Source: a virus. Taken from it: 43,736 bases of DNA. Within the stretch, counting starts at the first letter, position 1, and each line of letters starts with the position of its first letter. Positions 1,977 to 6,376 of the stretch are shown piece by piece. Under the pieces are notes generated by a model. It saw only the letters and a list, made by a program, of their open reading frames with translations. It made no database searches and was not told the DNA's origin. A program made the position numbers and the translations under genes. Where the stretch lies: positions 1 to 43,736 of IMG/VR virus record IMGVR_UViG_3300027832_000037, one strand, 5' to 3'.

Positions 1977-4292
1977 ATGACCGACTGGAAAAACAGAATC
2001 ACCGGAAGCGGCACCGAGGACCCCGAGCAGCTACTAGCCAACCCGCACAACTTCCGCTACCACCCAAAGCACCAGCAAGATGCGCTAGCCGGCGTGCTAA
2101 ATGAAATCGGCTGGATTCAGGACGTCATAGTCAACACCACCACCGGCCACATCATCGACGGCCACCTCCGCGTTCAGTTAGCCATGAGCCGGAGCGAGCG
2201 CGTGCCGGTAAAATACGTCGAGCTATCCGAGAACGAGGAGCGGATCGCGCTAGCAGCAATAGACCCAATATCAGCACTCGCCACCCAGGACCAGGGACTA
2301 CTAGACGACCTAATCGAAGGCATACACAGCGTCGGCGATATGGCCGCGAACGCATTTCTCCAAAGCCTACTATCCGACGACGGTCCGGACTTCGGAGGCG
2401 GGCAGCAGGAGGAAGCGCGCCAAGGACTACAGCAGCGCTTCCTCGTCCCGCCATTCAGCGTGCTAGACGCCAAGCAGGGCTACTGGAAGGACCGCAAGAA
2501 CCTATGGCTACAACTAGGCATCCAGTCAGAACTAGGCCGCGGCAACGAGGGCGACAAAACAGAGCGCGGCCTAACCTACGCCGTCAGCAGCCAGCCTCCA
2601 GGCGTTTACGAATTCAAAAACAAGGTAGAAGCCCAGCGCGGGCGCAAGCTAACCTGGCAGGAGTTCGTCGAGGAATTCCCCGAGGAGATAACGCTAACCG
2701 GAACAAGCATATTCGACCCGGTGCTAACCGAGATAAGCTACTCATGGTTTTGCCCTCCAGGCGGCGCGATCCTAGACCCGTTCGCCGGCGGCAGCGTCCG
2801 CGGATTGGTCGCAGGATTCCTCGGCTACAACTACACCGGCATCGACCTACGCGGCGAGCAGATACAGGCTAACCGACAACAGGCCTTCAAAATACTCGGA
2901 GCCCAAACACCAGGGAAGCCGGCGGCAGACCTACCACCAACCAGAATCCAGGAGCACGACGGCATCCGAGTACTCCGCGACGACGATGTATTCGGCGGCA
3001 CCAAACGAAGGGCGCTAGAGCGAGTGCTCGCCGCCTCTCCCGAGACCACCTTCGTGTACGCCACACCGGCCTATGGTTTCGCGCAAATAGCGCTAGCGGC
3101 CGCAGCCAGGGCAACAGGGAAGCAAGCGCATATATTCGTCGCAGGCCGACGCAAAAAGCCGCACGCCAGGACCGAAGCCGCAGCGCGAGCCGGAGCAGTA
3201 GTCCACGAAGTCGACGCGAGATACCTAATCGCCACCCAAAAGGCCGCCCGAGACTTCGCCGAGGAGACCGGCGCGCACTACATCGAATTCGGCCTAGATA
3301 ACCAGGACTTCATCGACGCCATAGCGGCCGTCGCGCTAGAGACCGGAGAAACACCGACCGAAGTCTGGACCGTAGCAGGAAGCGGCGTCCTAACCAGGGC
3401 GCTACAGCAGGCTTGGCCTGACGCTGAATTCCACGCGGTAGCCATAGGCAAAGACCCCCAGGTCGGAAGGGCTAAGCTATACGAGGCTCCGGAAAAGTTC
3501 GAGGACCCAGCAAAACAGCCGCCGCCTTTCGAGTCATGCAACAACTACGACGCCAAAGCCTGGAGATTCATCAAGGAGCACGCCAGCGAAGGCGCATTAT
3601 TCTGGAACGTAGCAGGCGACGTCGGCACATTCGATATAATGCGACAGGCCCAGGGAGAGCCGCGATGGATCGAAGGCGACTCCAGGGAAGTCCGAAAACA
3701 CGCCCCAGGCGAATACGATATGGTTTTTAGTTGCCCTCCATACGCCGACCTGGAAGTCTACAGCGACGACCCGAAGGACCTATCGACCCTCGAATATCAC
3801 GAATTTATAGCGGCCTACACCCACATAATCGGCGAAAGCTGCAAAATGCTAAAGGACAACAGATTCGCGGTATTCGTAGTCGGCGAAGTACGAGACCCCA
3901 AAGGGCGTTACAGGGGTTTCGTCCAGGATACCATTGCGGCCTTCCAGGCGGCCGGCCTTCACTACTACAACGAGGCGGTGCTGCTTACCAACATAGGAAG
4001 CAACGCCATGCGCGCCGGCGGTATGTTCAGCAGCAGCCGGAAGCTAGCGAAAGGGCACCAGAACGCGCTGGTATTCGCAAAAGGCGAGCCCAGCCTGGGC
4101 GACATAAAGGGACTCAGCAAAGCGGTCGCAGACCACTTCAAAGTGCACCGCACAGTATTTCAGGCATACGACAACGTCATGGTATTTTGTAAAGGAGACC
4201 CGAAGCTAGCCACCGAGACCATCGGCGAAGTGAAAACCGTAGACCTAGAGGCGCTGCAGCTAGCGGCGATGGATTCAGAACTTAACCTATAG
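1977..4292 (+). CDS. ParB-like domain / DNA methyltransferase with an inserted PLP-type-II-like domain
   Basis: The 771-residue protein appears to contain three units. Residues about 14-100 are a ParB/Srx-like N-terminal domain (TGHIIDGHLRVQLA at 56-69). An AdoMet-methyltransferase core follows, with motif I (LDPFAGG, 266-272) and, far downstream, a CPPY catalytic motif (586-589), then a long C-terminal part shared with methylase-like phage proteins. Between the motifs, about 325-550, lies a region resembling fold-type-II PLP enzymes such as ACC deaminase and threonine synthase: GGTK (Lys 343, possible Schiff-base lysine), an alternating region YGFAQIALAAAARATGKQA, and a glycine loop TVAGSG (465-470) like the phosphate-binding loop. 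The methylase part fits adenine-N6 or cytosine-N4 chemistry. The PLP-like unit suggests amino-acid-derived base modification, which is inference. RBS AGGAG precedes ATG 1977. Confidence 0.72.
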   Translation: MTDWKNRITGSGTEDPEQLLANPHNFRYHPKHQQDALAGVLNEIGWIQDVIVNTTTGHIIDGHLRVQLAMSRSERVPVKYVELSENEERIALAAIDPISALATQDQGLLDDLIEGIHSVGDMAANAFLQSLLSDDGPDFGGGQQEEARQGLQQRFLVPPFSVLDAKQGYWKDRKNLWLQLGIQSELGRGNEGDKTERGLTYAVSSQPPGVYEFKNKVEAQRGRKLTWQEFVEEFPEEITLTGTSIFDPVLTEISYSWFCPPGGAILDPFAGGSVRGLVAGFLGYNYTGIDLRGEQIQANRQQAFKILGAQTPGKPAADLPPTRIQEHDGIRVLRDDDVFGGTKRRALERVLAASPETTFVYATPAYGFAQIALAAAARATGKQAHIFVAGRRKKPHARTEAAARAGAVVHEVDARYLIATQKAARDFAEETGAHYIEFGLDNQDFIDAIAAVALETGETPTEVWTVAGSGVLTRALQQAWPDAEFHAVAIGKDPQVGRAKLYEAPEKFEDPAKQPPPFESCNNYDAKAWRFIKEHASEGALFWNVAGDVGTFDIMRQAQGEPRWIEGDSREVRKHAPGEYDMVFSCPPYADLEVYSDDPKDLSTLEYHEFIAAYTHIIGESCKMLKDNRFAVFVVGEVRDPKGRYRGFVQDTIAAFQAAGLHYYNEAVLLTNIGSNAMRAGGMFSSSRKLAKGHQNALVFAKGEPSLGDIKGLSKAVADHFKVHRTVFQAYDNVMVFCKGDPKLATETIGEVKTVDLEALQLAAMDSELNL

Positions 4293-4302
4293 AGACTGAA
4301 CG

Positions 4303-4782
4303 ATGGCGCAAACCATGAAGCAGAAATTCACAATGGCGCAAAAGCGAGAAATGGCCGTGAGCCTAATGCTGGCGGGCCTTTCATTGAAACAGATAGGCGA
4401 GCAGATAGGCGTCAGCAAGACCCGAGCGCATCAGCTCGTTCAGGAGGCGTTCAGCGAGTACGAACTACGGACACAGCAGACCATCGACAACCTACGAACC
4501 CGCCAATTGATGAGAATAAACATCCTCATGCAGGCGATATGGACGAAGGCGAAAGGCGGCGCGCTAGAGCATATCGACCGATGGGAAAAGCTAGCACGCC
4601 AGGAGGCCGCAATCGGAGGATTCAAAGCGCCGGACAAGATCGCAAACACCGACAGCAAGGGCCGCGACCTACCCAGGCCCGAGGACGATTACGACAACAT
4701 GACCGTCGAGGAGCTAGAGAATCGGATCAAGGAACTAGAGGCCAAAACGATAGGACGCCATGACGGCCCAACAACGCACTGA
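4303..4782 (+). CDS. Terminase small subunit-like, helix-turn-helix
   Basis: This 159-residue protein carries an N-terminal helix-turn-helix (about residues 17-50, with LSLKQIGEQIGVSKTRAHQL), a helical middle that could oligomerise, and an acidic C terminus. It lies immediately before the large terminase subunit and overlaps it by 23 bases in another frame. Small terminase subunits bind phage DNA and present it to the motor. Sequence conservation in this family is weak, so the call rests on the HTH plus position. Confidence 0.78.
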   Translation: MAQTMKQKFTMAQKREMAVSLMLAGLSLKQIGEQIGVSKTRAHQLVQEAFSEYELRTQQTIDNLRTRQLMRINILMQAIWTKAKGGALEHIDRWEKLARQEAAIGGFKAPDKIANTDSKGRDLPRPEDDYDNMTVEELENRIKELEAKTIGRHDGPTTH

Positions 4783-6376
4783 TTCGCTTGTCCAGATAGT
4801 AAAGGCAAAGGAGGCGCTATACAGAAAGCAGGCCGCGAGCCACCTCGACACCTTTTGCCGATACGTCAAAATCCCAGGCGCGCCGCTTAACGACGACGAG
4901 GACTGCGAGGAGTTCTATCCGGACAGAGTAACGCCCGCGGAGCACCACACCCTACTCAACAGCAAGCTCCAGGAAGTAAACGACGGAACCATAAAGCGCC
5001 TAATGGTATTCATGCCACCAGGGAGCGCCAAAAGCACCTACGTCAGCGTAACTTTCCCGCCGTTCTACATGGCAAACCACCCAAACGAGCCGGTCATTCT
5101 AACCAGCTACGGCAGCCAGCTAGCGGACAAGTTCGGCCGGAAGGGCCGGCAGCTAACCAGCTCGCCTGAGTTCAAAAACCTCTACAAGACCGAGCTCCGC
5201 TCCGGCAACAGGGCAGCCAACGACTGGAGCCTAACCAACGACGCCACGTTTATGTGCGGCGGCATACTATCCGGCCTAACCGGCAACAGGGCCAAGCTAA
5301 TCATCGTAGACGACCCCGTCCAGGGAAGGGAGCAGGCCGACTCGCAGGTCATACGGGACAAAACGTGGGACGCCTACCAGGACGACCTCACCACCCGACT
5401 AAAACCGGAAGGCGCAATCGTTATCGTCCAGACCCGCTGGCACGAGGACGATCTAAGCGGCCGAATATTGCCGGAGGAGTGGGATGGGCAGAGCGGCTGG
5501 ATCGAAAGCCGCACCGGCGAGCCCTGGTACGTCCTATGCCTAGAGGCCGAGTGCACCAGGGACGACGACCCGCTCGGGCGTGAGGCAGGCGAATATCTAT
5601 GGACCGACTGGTTCACGCCGGCGCATTGGCAGCGTGAAAAGCGCAACAGGGGCAGCAGGAATTGGGCCGCCCTATACCAGCAACGACCGAAGCCAGCGGA
5701 AGGATCGCTCATACAGCGATCATGGATTCAGCGTTATGGCACACCGCCGGCCGAATTTTTACGAATAGTTCAATCCTGGGACACCGCGTACAAAGACAAG
5801 GAAATCAACGACCCGAGCGTCTGCCTAACCTGGGGCGAAACGCGGCAGGGCTACTATTTGCTAGACGTATTCAGGAAGCGCCTGCTATATCCAGACGTCA
5901 GGCGTTCCATGTACAGTTTGGGCATGAAGTGGAACCCGATAGCCGTTCTCATAGAGGACAAGGCAAGCGGGCAGTCGCTAATCCAGGAAGCACGCGAAGG
6001 CGTCAAAATACAGGAGGGGGAATGGTACACGCCGCCGGCCATTGCAATAGACCCGAAATCGCTCAACAAGACCGAGCGGCTAGTAGCAGTCTCCTCGATA
6101 GTAGAGGCCAAGCTCGTATATTTGCCCGAGTGGGCAGAGTGGCTGGTCGACTTCGAAAGCGAGCTATTCGGCTATCCGCTGGTTTCCAACGACGATCAAG
6201 TGGACGCATTCAGCCAATTCCTGAAATGGGCTCACAGTTCGAAAATGGCAGTAGACAGCCACAGCAGCGGAACGACCAGGGCAGGCTTCTCCGACACAGG
6301 CAGGAGCAGGCATTCAGCAACGGACGACCTAGACCTGGGCGTGCGCAGTAACAACGACTTCGGAGGGTACGAGTAA
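4760..6376 (+). CDS. Terminase large subunit (ATPase and nuclease)
   Basis: The 538-residue protein has the standard packaging-motor layout. The ATPase Walker A is PPGSAKST (residues 86-93) and Walker B is LIIVDDP (180-186). The C-terminal RNase H-fold nuclease has acidic residues at QSWDTAY (Asp 341), VLIEDKASG (Asp 400) and NDDQVDAF (Asp 478/479/482). It pumps DNA into the prohead through the portal and cuts it. The start overlaps the small subunit. The last 45 residues are Ser/Arg/Asp-rich and look disordered. The stop overlaps the portal start as TAATG, implying translational coupling. Confidence 0.95.
   Translation: MTAQQRTDSLVQIVKAKEALYRKQAASHLDTFCRYVKIPGAPLNDDEDCEEFYPDRVTPAEHHTLLNSKLQEVNDGTIKRLMVFMPPGSAKSTYVSVTFPPFYMANHPNEPVILTSYGSQLADKFGRKGRQLTSSPEFKNLYKTELRSGNRAANDWSLTNDATFMCGGILSGLTGNRAKLIIVDDPVQGREQADSQVIRDKTWDAYQDDLTTRLKPEGAIVIVQTRWHEDDLSGRILPEEWDGQSGWIESRTGEPWYVLCLEAECTRDDDPLGREAGEYLWTDWFTPAHWQREKRNRGSRNWAALYQQRPKPAEGSLIQRSWIQRYGTPPAEFLRIVQSWDTAYKDKEINDPSVCLTWGETRQGYYLLDVFRKRLLYPDVRRSMYSLGMKWNPIAVLIEDKASGQSLIQEAREGVKIQEGEWYTPPAIAIDPKSLNKTERLVAVSSIVEAKLVYLPEWAEWLVDFESELFGYPLVSNDDQVDAFSQFLKWAHSSKMAVDSHSSGTTRAGFSDTGRSRHSATDDLDLGVRSNNDFGGYE

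Follow-up and report, generated by a model that had tools for sequence, protein, structure and literature searches.

The closest published analogue of the locus described here is the CmoX/CmoA/CmoY system of Synechococcus phage S-B43, in which a phage DNA methyltransferase (MTase) fold works with a SAM derivative from a linked phage enzyme to install a handle, and this is then tailored further (PMC12783734). PLP enzymes are also associated with phage DNA hypermodification: one is listed as part of the M6-like cassette (PMC9476957), and the DNA of phage M6 contains 5-(2-aminoethyl)deoxyuridine (PMC6449724). ParB-fused m6A/m4C MTases of phages are known from the ParB-Tls locus; they have the same ParB-MTase architecture as the protein considered here and are likewise encoded upstream of the terminase (PMC6536676). 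Outside DNA modification, spermidine synthase and putrescine N-methyltransferase (PMT) show that motif I residues of an MTase fold help to set the use of decarboxylated SAM (dcSAM), for aminopropyl transfer, or of SAM (PMC3725402).

We analysed a 43,736-nucleotide stretch of viral DNA, IMG/VR record IMGVR_UViG_3300027832_000037 (the window), in which one open reading frame combines a ParB-like domain, an MTase and a putative PLP domain. Comparative evidence suggests that what enzymes of this family add to phage DNA is an amino-acid-like arm and not simply methyl.

Architecture of the open reading frame

The ORF at 1977-4292 lies directly upstream of terminase genes (Table 1). The motifs that an initial annotation had named from the letters alone are all present in the 771-aa product at the positions claimed: LDPFAGG (motif I) at 266-272, GGTK ending at Lys343, ALAAAARATGKQA at 372-384, TVAGSG at 465-470 and CPPY at 586-589. 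Profile matches indicate that these motifs are not due to chance. Pfam PALP (PF00291) matched at 342-490 (E 3.8e-8; 33.5 bits, just below the 35-bit cut-off), Pfam N6_N4_Mtase (PF01555) in two stretches (E 3.3e-7), and PHROGs 498 ('DNA methyltransferase') and 12517 with E-values of 3e-99 and 4e-98. PHROG 7093 ('threonine dehydratase') matched aa 327-546 (E 5e-29) and PHROG 620 ('ParB-like') aa 17-143 (E 4e-11), the latter bearing out the ParB-like start that had been claimed. Motif I and the Rossmann-type fold of amino-MTases are both present (PF01555, phrog_498). The (D/N/S)PPY form of motif IV typical of amino (N6-A/N4-C) DNA MTases is not; the motif reads CPPY in 147/147 relatives. In the C-terminal tail (window 4060-4240, aa ~695-755) the last MTase strand is repeated (HQNALVFAKGEP ... 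YDNVMVFCKGDP), as it also is in L182, L186 and phage ZRG1.

Table 1. Features of the ORF and of the genes downstream, in window coordinates
Feature	Position	Strand	Basis and remarks
Whole ORF	1977..4292	+	771 aa in one open frame: ParB-like domain, MTase N part, PLP domain, MTase C part
ParB/Srx-like domain (aa 1-161)	1977..2459	+	phrog_620, E 3.9e-11 at 17-143; model confident for ~aa 1-90
MTase N part (aa 244-310)	2706..2906	+	SIFDPVL segment, motif I, motif II and next helix, by alignment; PF01555 at 259-297
Motif I DPFAGGSVRG (aa 267-276)	2775..2804	+	The AdoMetDC-linked clade has D and F in place of G272 and R275
Inserted compact fold-type-II PLP domain, predicted (aa 316-548)	2922..3620	+	PF00291, phrog_7093, AlphaFold model, Foldseek against PDB
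Lys343, predicted PLP Schiff-base lysine	3003..3005	+	Invariant (77/77); aligns with the KxR lysine of CysK
TVAGSG loop (aa 465-470), predicted PLP phosphate loop	3369..3386	+	G470 77/77, S469 76/77
YDAKAW (aa 524-529)	3546..3563	+	Y524 and K527 invariant; counterpart in M6 gp52 is YDLKAW
MTase C part (aa 560-706)	3654..4094	+	Motif III-like WIEGDS, motif IV CPPY, later motifs to HQNALVFAKG
Motif IV CPPY (aa 586-589)	3732..3743	+	Invariant in 147 relatives; Cys where amino-MTases have D/N/S
Terminase genes directly downstream	4303..6376	+	ParB-Tls locus context (PMC6536676)
Probable terminase small subunit	4303-4782	+	By position; PHROG label 'Rnase E'
Terminase large subunit	4760-6376	+	

The inserted PLP domain

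Sequence and model agree that the insert is a complete and compact PLP domain of fold type II. AlphaFold was run on a 43-row alignment of the window protein and viral contigs, checked column by column before folding. The resulting model (pTM 0.52) gave the insert (~316-548) pLDDT values mostly of 90-98, with low confidence in the linkers on either side (311-315 and 551-559); folding the domain from its sequence alone gave a poor model (pLDDT 58.7), which was set aside. The best 50 Foldseek matches in the PDB were all fold-type II PLP enzymes (best E 3.2e-10), including diaminopropionate ammonia-lyase, serine racemase, an ACC deaminase homologue, D-cysteine desulfhydrase and CysK. Both the early Schiff-base lysine and the glycine-rich phosphate loop of this class are present, and a profile search of the PDB placed Lys343 opposite the KxR-motif lysine of O-acetylserine sulfhydrylase. 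Among 77 distinct homologues, Lys343, G367, A369, G406, G439, G470, R474, Y524, A526, K527 and W543 are invariant, and S469 is conserved in 76. The span of 325-550 proposed initially therefore covered nearly the whole domain, and homologues and model refine it to ~316-548. The claim of a type II PLP enzyme between MTase motifs also stood up when set against a mere target-recognition domain: the predicted fold is of type II, Lys343 is invariant, and the insert lies between motifs II and III.

Alpha-class MTases carry a target-recognition domain near the place of the PLP insertion, and the PLP fold might accordingly be no more than a non-catalytic scaffold or target-recognition domain. We regard this as hardly credible, given that Lys343 is kept in 77/77 homologues, that the SG loop, YDAK and W543 are invariant or nearly so, and that the PLP domain is also found as a separate gene. 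The type II fold and the invariant residues together rule out a mere target-recognition domain as the fold, if not, strictly, a loss of activity.

By hhalign the domain has a relative in Bordetella phage CN2, annotated 'threonine dehydratase' (97% probability, E 6e-11). Neighbours of the CN2 gene encode an amino acid:DNA transferase (PF18724), a 5hmdU kinase (PF18748), HMUDK_hel (PF18723), Nmad5 (PF18757), a dUMP hydroxymethyltransferase and a protein that matches radical SAM weakly. In Pseudomonas phage M6 the same gene recurs as gp52, 81% identical and in an equivalent cassette, and the signature K..GA..SG..YDxKAW..FWN is common to M6 gp52, the CN2 protein and the window domain. In pathways of this kind, Lee et al. 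(NAR 2021) have reportedly assigned a PLP-dependent step that decarboxylates the amino acid attached to the base. No thymidylate synthase (PF00303) was detected in the window record, which may be incomplete, while the controls matched; the handle must then come from elsewhere, and the MTase is the obvious candidate. PF18723 had no match in the window record, nor in its controls.

Insertion site and linkage to the methyltransferase

ParB-MTases that lack the insert occur in Listeria phage B054, Enterococcus phage phiFL3A, halovirus HCTV-2 and Pseudomonas phage ZRG1, and in the alignment they close up exactly at the insertion point, where the helix that follows motif II meets the W-x-GDS strand. 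The insert is present in Erythrobacter phages R6L and ZS04 and in Pseudanabaena phage Pam4, while in Microcystis phage Mae-JY30 ParB, MTase and PLP are three adjacent genes. No residue clearly sets MTases that have PLP apart from those that lack it. A related ParB-MTase (L191:4764-6839) carries at the site of the PLP domains an unrelated insert of ~139 aa with several cysteines and no Pfam match. Near the PLP-MTase gene of R6L and ZS04 lies a PAPS-reductase-like gene (L003:5532-6575).

The same PLP/MTase pair, fused or side by side, is found in hundreds of other phages. Scanning viral contigs with the PLP domain alone gave 191 relatives, from which 80 loci were kept; a CPPY MTase lies within 1.5 kb in 72 of these, mostly tens of bp away, and one more locus has a split MTase. 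The linkage recurs in 10 of 12 PLP loci on genome contigs. Among relatives of two host genomes, 289 from the same class and 301 from the same family, searches yielded no further strong member beyond the seed genomes, and hence no independent cellular sample. A second PLP subfamily (type-B; GGK, SPQ, VGSG, YEAK) comprises 79 classified loci. Its PLP domain occupies the same MTase insertion site in 42, is C-terminal in 5, N-terminal in 7 and ParB-fused in 1, and is separate but within 1.5 kb in 13; 10 type-B loci, like L001, have no CPPY MTase nearby. Some PLP genes share their locus with non-CPPY PF01555 MTases (L035:2231-3769, where the two are directly adjacent, and L043:5138-6382).

Fusions thus occur in three orders, and two different PLP subfamilies are inserted at one site. 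A quick FastTree tree of 157 MTases has 19 changes of the PLP label among R-type enzymes (defined below) and 5 of the label for insertion. Units that fuse again and again in varying order, and are repeatedly gained or lost, are what one would expect of functional partners, and the initial proposal that the three units act jointly is strongly supported by the three fusion orders and the near-universal adjacency. The same pattern bears on a counter-defence role, in which PLP or AdoMet decarboxylase (AdoMetDC) would drain SAM or amino acids and starve a methylation-based host defence. SAM depletion by phage enzymes has been mentioned (PMC12783734), but fusion inside an MTase, conserved MTase motifs and near-exclusive linkage to one MTase family point to a common substrate and make such a role very improbable.

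Four MTase operons include an aspartyl/asparaginyl beta-hydroxylase-like 2OG oxygenase gene (L130:3227-4381, L136:2995-4272, L027:1461-2735, L166:5745-6947; PF05118 match in L166), and PLP is present in three of the four. These genes fit an amino-acid side chain on the base.

The AdoMetDC-linked sister clade

In ZRG1, Croceibacter phage P2559S and the uncultured L205, a ParB-MTase without PLP is followed directly by an AdoMetDC gene. A dedicated scan gave 219 distinct MTases with a readable motif I, which fall into two types. The GDxVFG type (62, two reading GDTIFG) has an adjacent AdoMetDC in 57 cases, with a typical gap of 11-14 bp, and PLP in none; two of the five exceptions are near a contig end (1 and 532 bp left). 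The GGSVRG or R-type (157, one reading GGSIRG) has PLP in 98 cases and AdoMetDC in none, and 59 are without PLP. D272/F275 are found in 62/62 of the AdoMetDC clade and G272/R275 in 157/157 of the others, a split that follows the clades, so that it reflects one or a few evolutionary events and p-values drawn from it are inflated. R275 is kept in all 98 readable PLP-linked MTases, and the readable MTases of type-B loci comprise 62 G/R, 1 E/K and 0 D/F. The window MTase has G272/R275, and not the Asp and hydrophobic residue expected of a dcSAM aminopropyltransferase, and no AdoMetDC was found in the window record. One phage has both types, an R-type MTase without PLP and, 1.6 kb further on, a GDSVFG type with AdoMetDC (L192:1607-5742).

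The AdoMetDC of P2559S restores spermidine in Escherichia coli lacking speD (PMC9992855), and decarboxylated SAM is therefore made beside such a transferase. Phage AdoMetDC homologues may also be ornithine or arginine decarboxylases (PMC10407285); here, the P2559S enzyme is a proven AdoMetDC, and the HTxPE proline and ESH are conserved in 56/56. The remaining sister-clade genes are predicted to encode AdoMetDC from these conserved residues. A gut contig encodes, in one chain, an MTase-fold part (DPPY) and a C-terminal AdoMetDC-like domain (L207:1606-3270); considered as a further AdoMetDC-MTase pair, it was dropped as a different MTase-fold/AdoMetDC fusion.

In our own gapless alignment of the glycine loops (FAG-G/D-S-V-R/F against GGG-D103-G-G-V106), positions 272 and 275 correspond to D103 and V106 of plant spermidine synthase. 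D103 forms a salt bridge with the amino group of dcSAM and is assumed to repel the carboxyl group of SAM, and D103I, together with Q79T and V106T, makes spermidine synthase a SAM-using methyltransferase (PMC3725402). From this motif alignment and analogy we infer that the switch at the two positions agrees with use of dcSAM by the AdoMetDC-linked clade and of SAM by the PLP-linked one.

The partner gene also raises the question of a substrate other than DNA. The proteins could be small-molecule aminopropyl or methyl transferases of polyamine metabolism, to which AdoMetDC would deliver dcSAM; a polyamine role is known for phage AdoMetDCs (PMC9992855), and the gut-contig fusion would agree with this. 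The ParB-like domain, the match to PF01555 and to the PHROG of DNA MTases, and the place beside the terminase make a polyamine enzyme distinctly improbable. A DNA-directed alternative is an ordinary N6-A/N4-C MTase, the PLP domain making from a free amino acid a reactive intermediate that is added to the base in a separate step, for example aminoacrylate derived from serine or cysteine by chemistry of the TrpB/CysK kind. The PF01555 match, the presence of CysK, TrpB and ACC deaminase among the nearest solved sequences or folds, and the frequent absence of PLP beside R-type MTases are in keeping with it. We nevertheless consider it unlikely, as it leaves unexplained the AdoMetDC partner and residue switch of the sister clade and the tight tie of PLP to a CPPY MTase, and as motif IV is CPPY instead of (D/N/S)PPY.

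Proposed mechanism

The best explanation as a whole, with a probability of roughly 0.4, is a phage DNA base-hypermodification enzyme that transfers an arm of SAM and then tailors it with PLP. The ParB-like domain would probably direct the enzyme to phage DNA. The CPPY MTase fold would bind complete SAM, its carboxylate held by Arg275, and would move the 3-amino-3-carboxypropyl arm to a DNA base, rather than or besides the methyl group. The PLP domain would form a Schiff base with the base-linked alpha-amino acid and tailor it; the most likely reaction is decarboxylation, which would leave 3-aminopropyl. The sister clade would make dcSAM first, through its linked AdoMetDC, and so arrive at the same product, an aminopropyl base. 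Resistance to restriction would be the likely benefit. PLP-linked MTases keep R275, so PLP should act after transfer and not before; SAM-first decarboxylation by PLP would be expected to favour the D/F type.

For the family, we tentatively propose movement of the propyl arm of SAM, as aminopropyl from AdoMetDC-made dcSAM in one branch, and in the other as aminocarboxypropyl followed by the action of PLP, which is built in in dozens of phages. Plain methylation is conceivable, since the 59 of 157 R-type MTases without PLP are not sharply different from the PLP-linked ones; these enzymes could be simple methyltransferases or could leave the arm untrimmed. Two further counterpoints concern chemistry. 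Fold-type-II decarboxylases are unusual. The change of spermidine synthase/PMT to SAM led to methyl transfer (PMC3725402).

The initial reading is thereby partly supported. Its base hypermodification gains indirect support from the M6/CN2 relatives and the AdoMetDC partner clade, and the amino acid may well derive from SAM itself, a source absent from that reading.

Comparison with known systems

If our proposal is correct, a large set of phage genes whose annotation is simply ParB-MTase would yield amino(carboxy)propyl bases in DNA, for which we know of no precedent. It would give a use for phage AdoMet decarboxylases encoded directly after such an MTase, and a single-chain transferase-plus-PLP enzyme would be useful for labelling DNA. 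Isolated phages with family members are P2559S, ZRG1, R6L, ZS04, Mae-JY30 and Pam4.

The phage domain has its fold in common with the ACC deaminase, D-cysteine desulfhydrase and CysK group, from which it differs in being compact (~233 aa) and without the usual asparagine-loop residues; its YxxK motif resembles that of ACC deaminase. As for the ParB-Tls MTases, the part of the published account considered here gives predicted functions and does not mention a PLP domain or decarboxylase partner (PMC6536676). The CmoX system consists of a C5-cytosine MTase, carboxy-SAM and an amide ligase, whereas the window enzyme matches the amino-MTase family; no CmoA-linked candidates of the N6/N4 type turned up in the CmoX study (PMC12783734). 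In spermidine synthase/PMT the same two positions switch as in the phage family, but these are small-molecule polyamine enzymes without a ParB domain or CPPY. The M6/YuA-type PLP enzyme resembles the window domain in its type II fold and its signature, and belongs to a phage DNA-hypermodification cassette; in M6 and CN2 it sits with genes for a 5hmdU kinase, an amino acid:DNA transferase, radical SAM and a hydroxymethylase, whereas in the window it lies inside the MTase.
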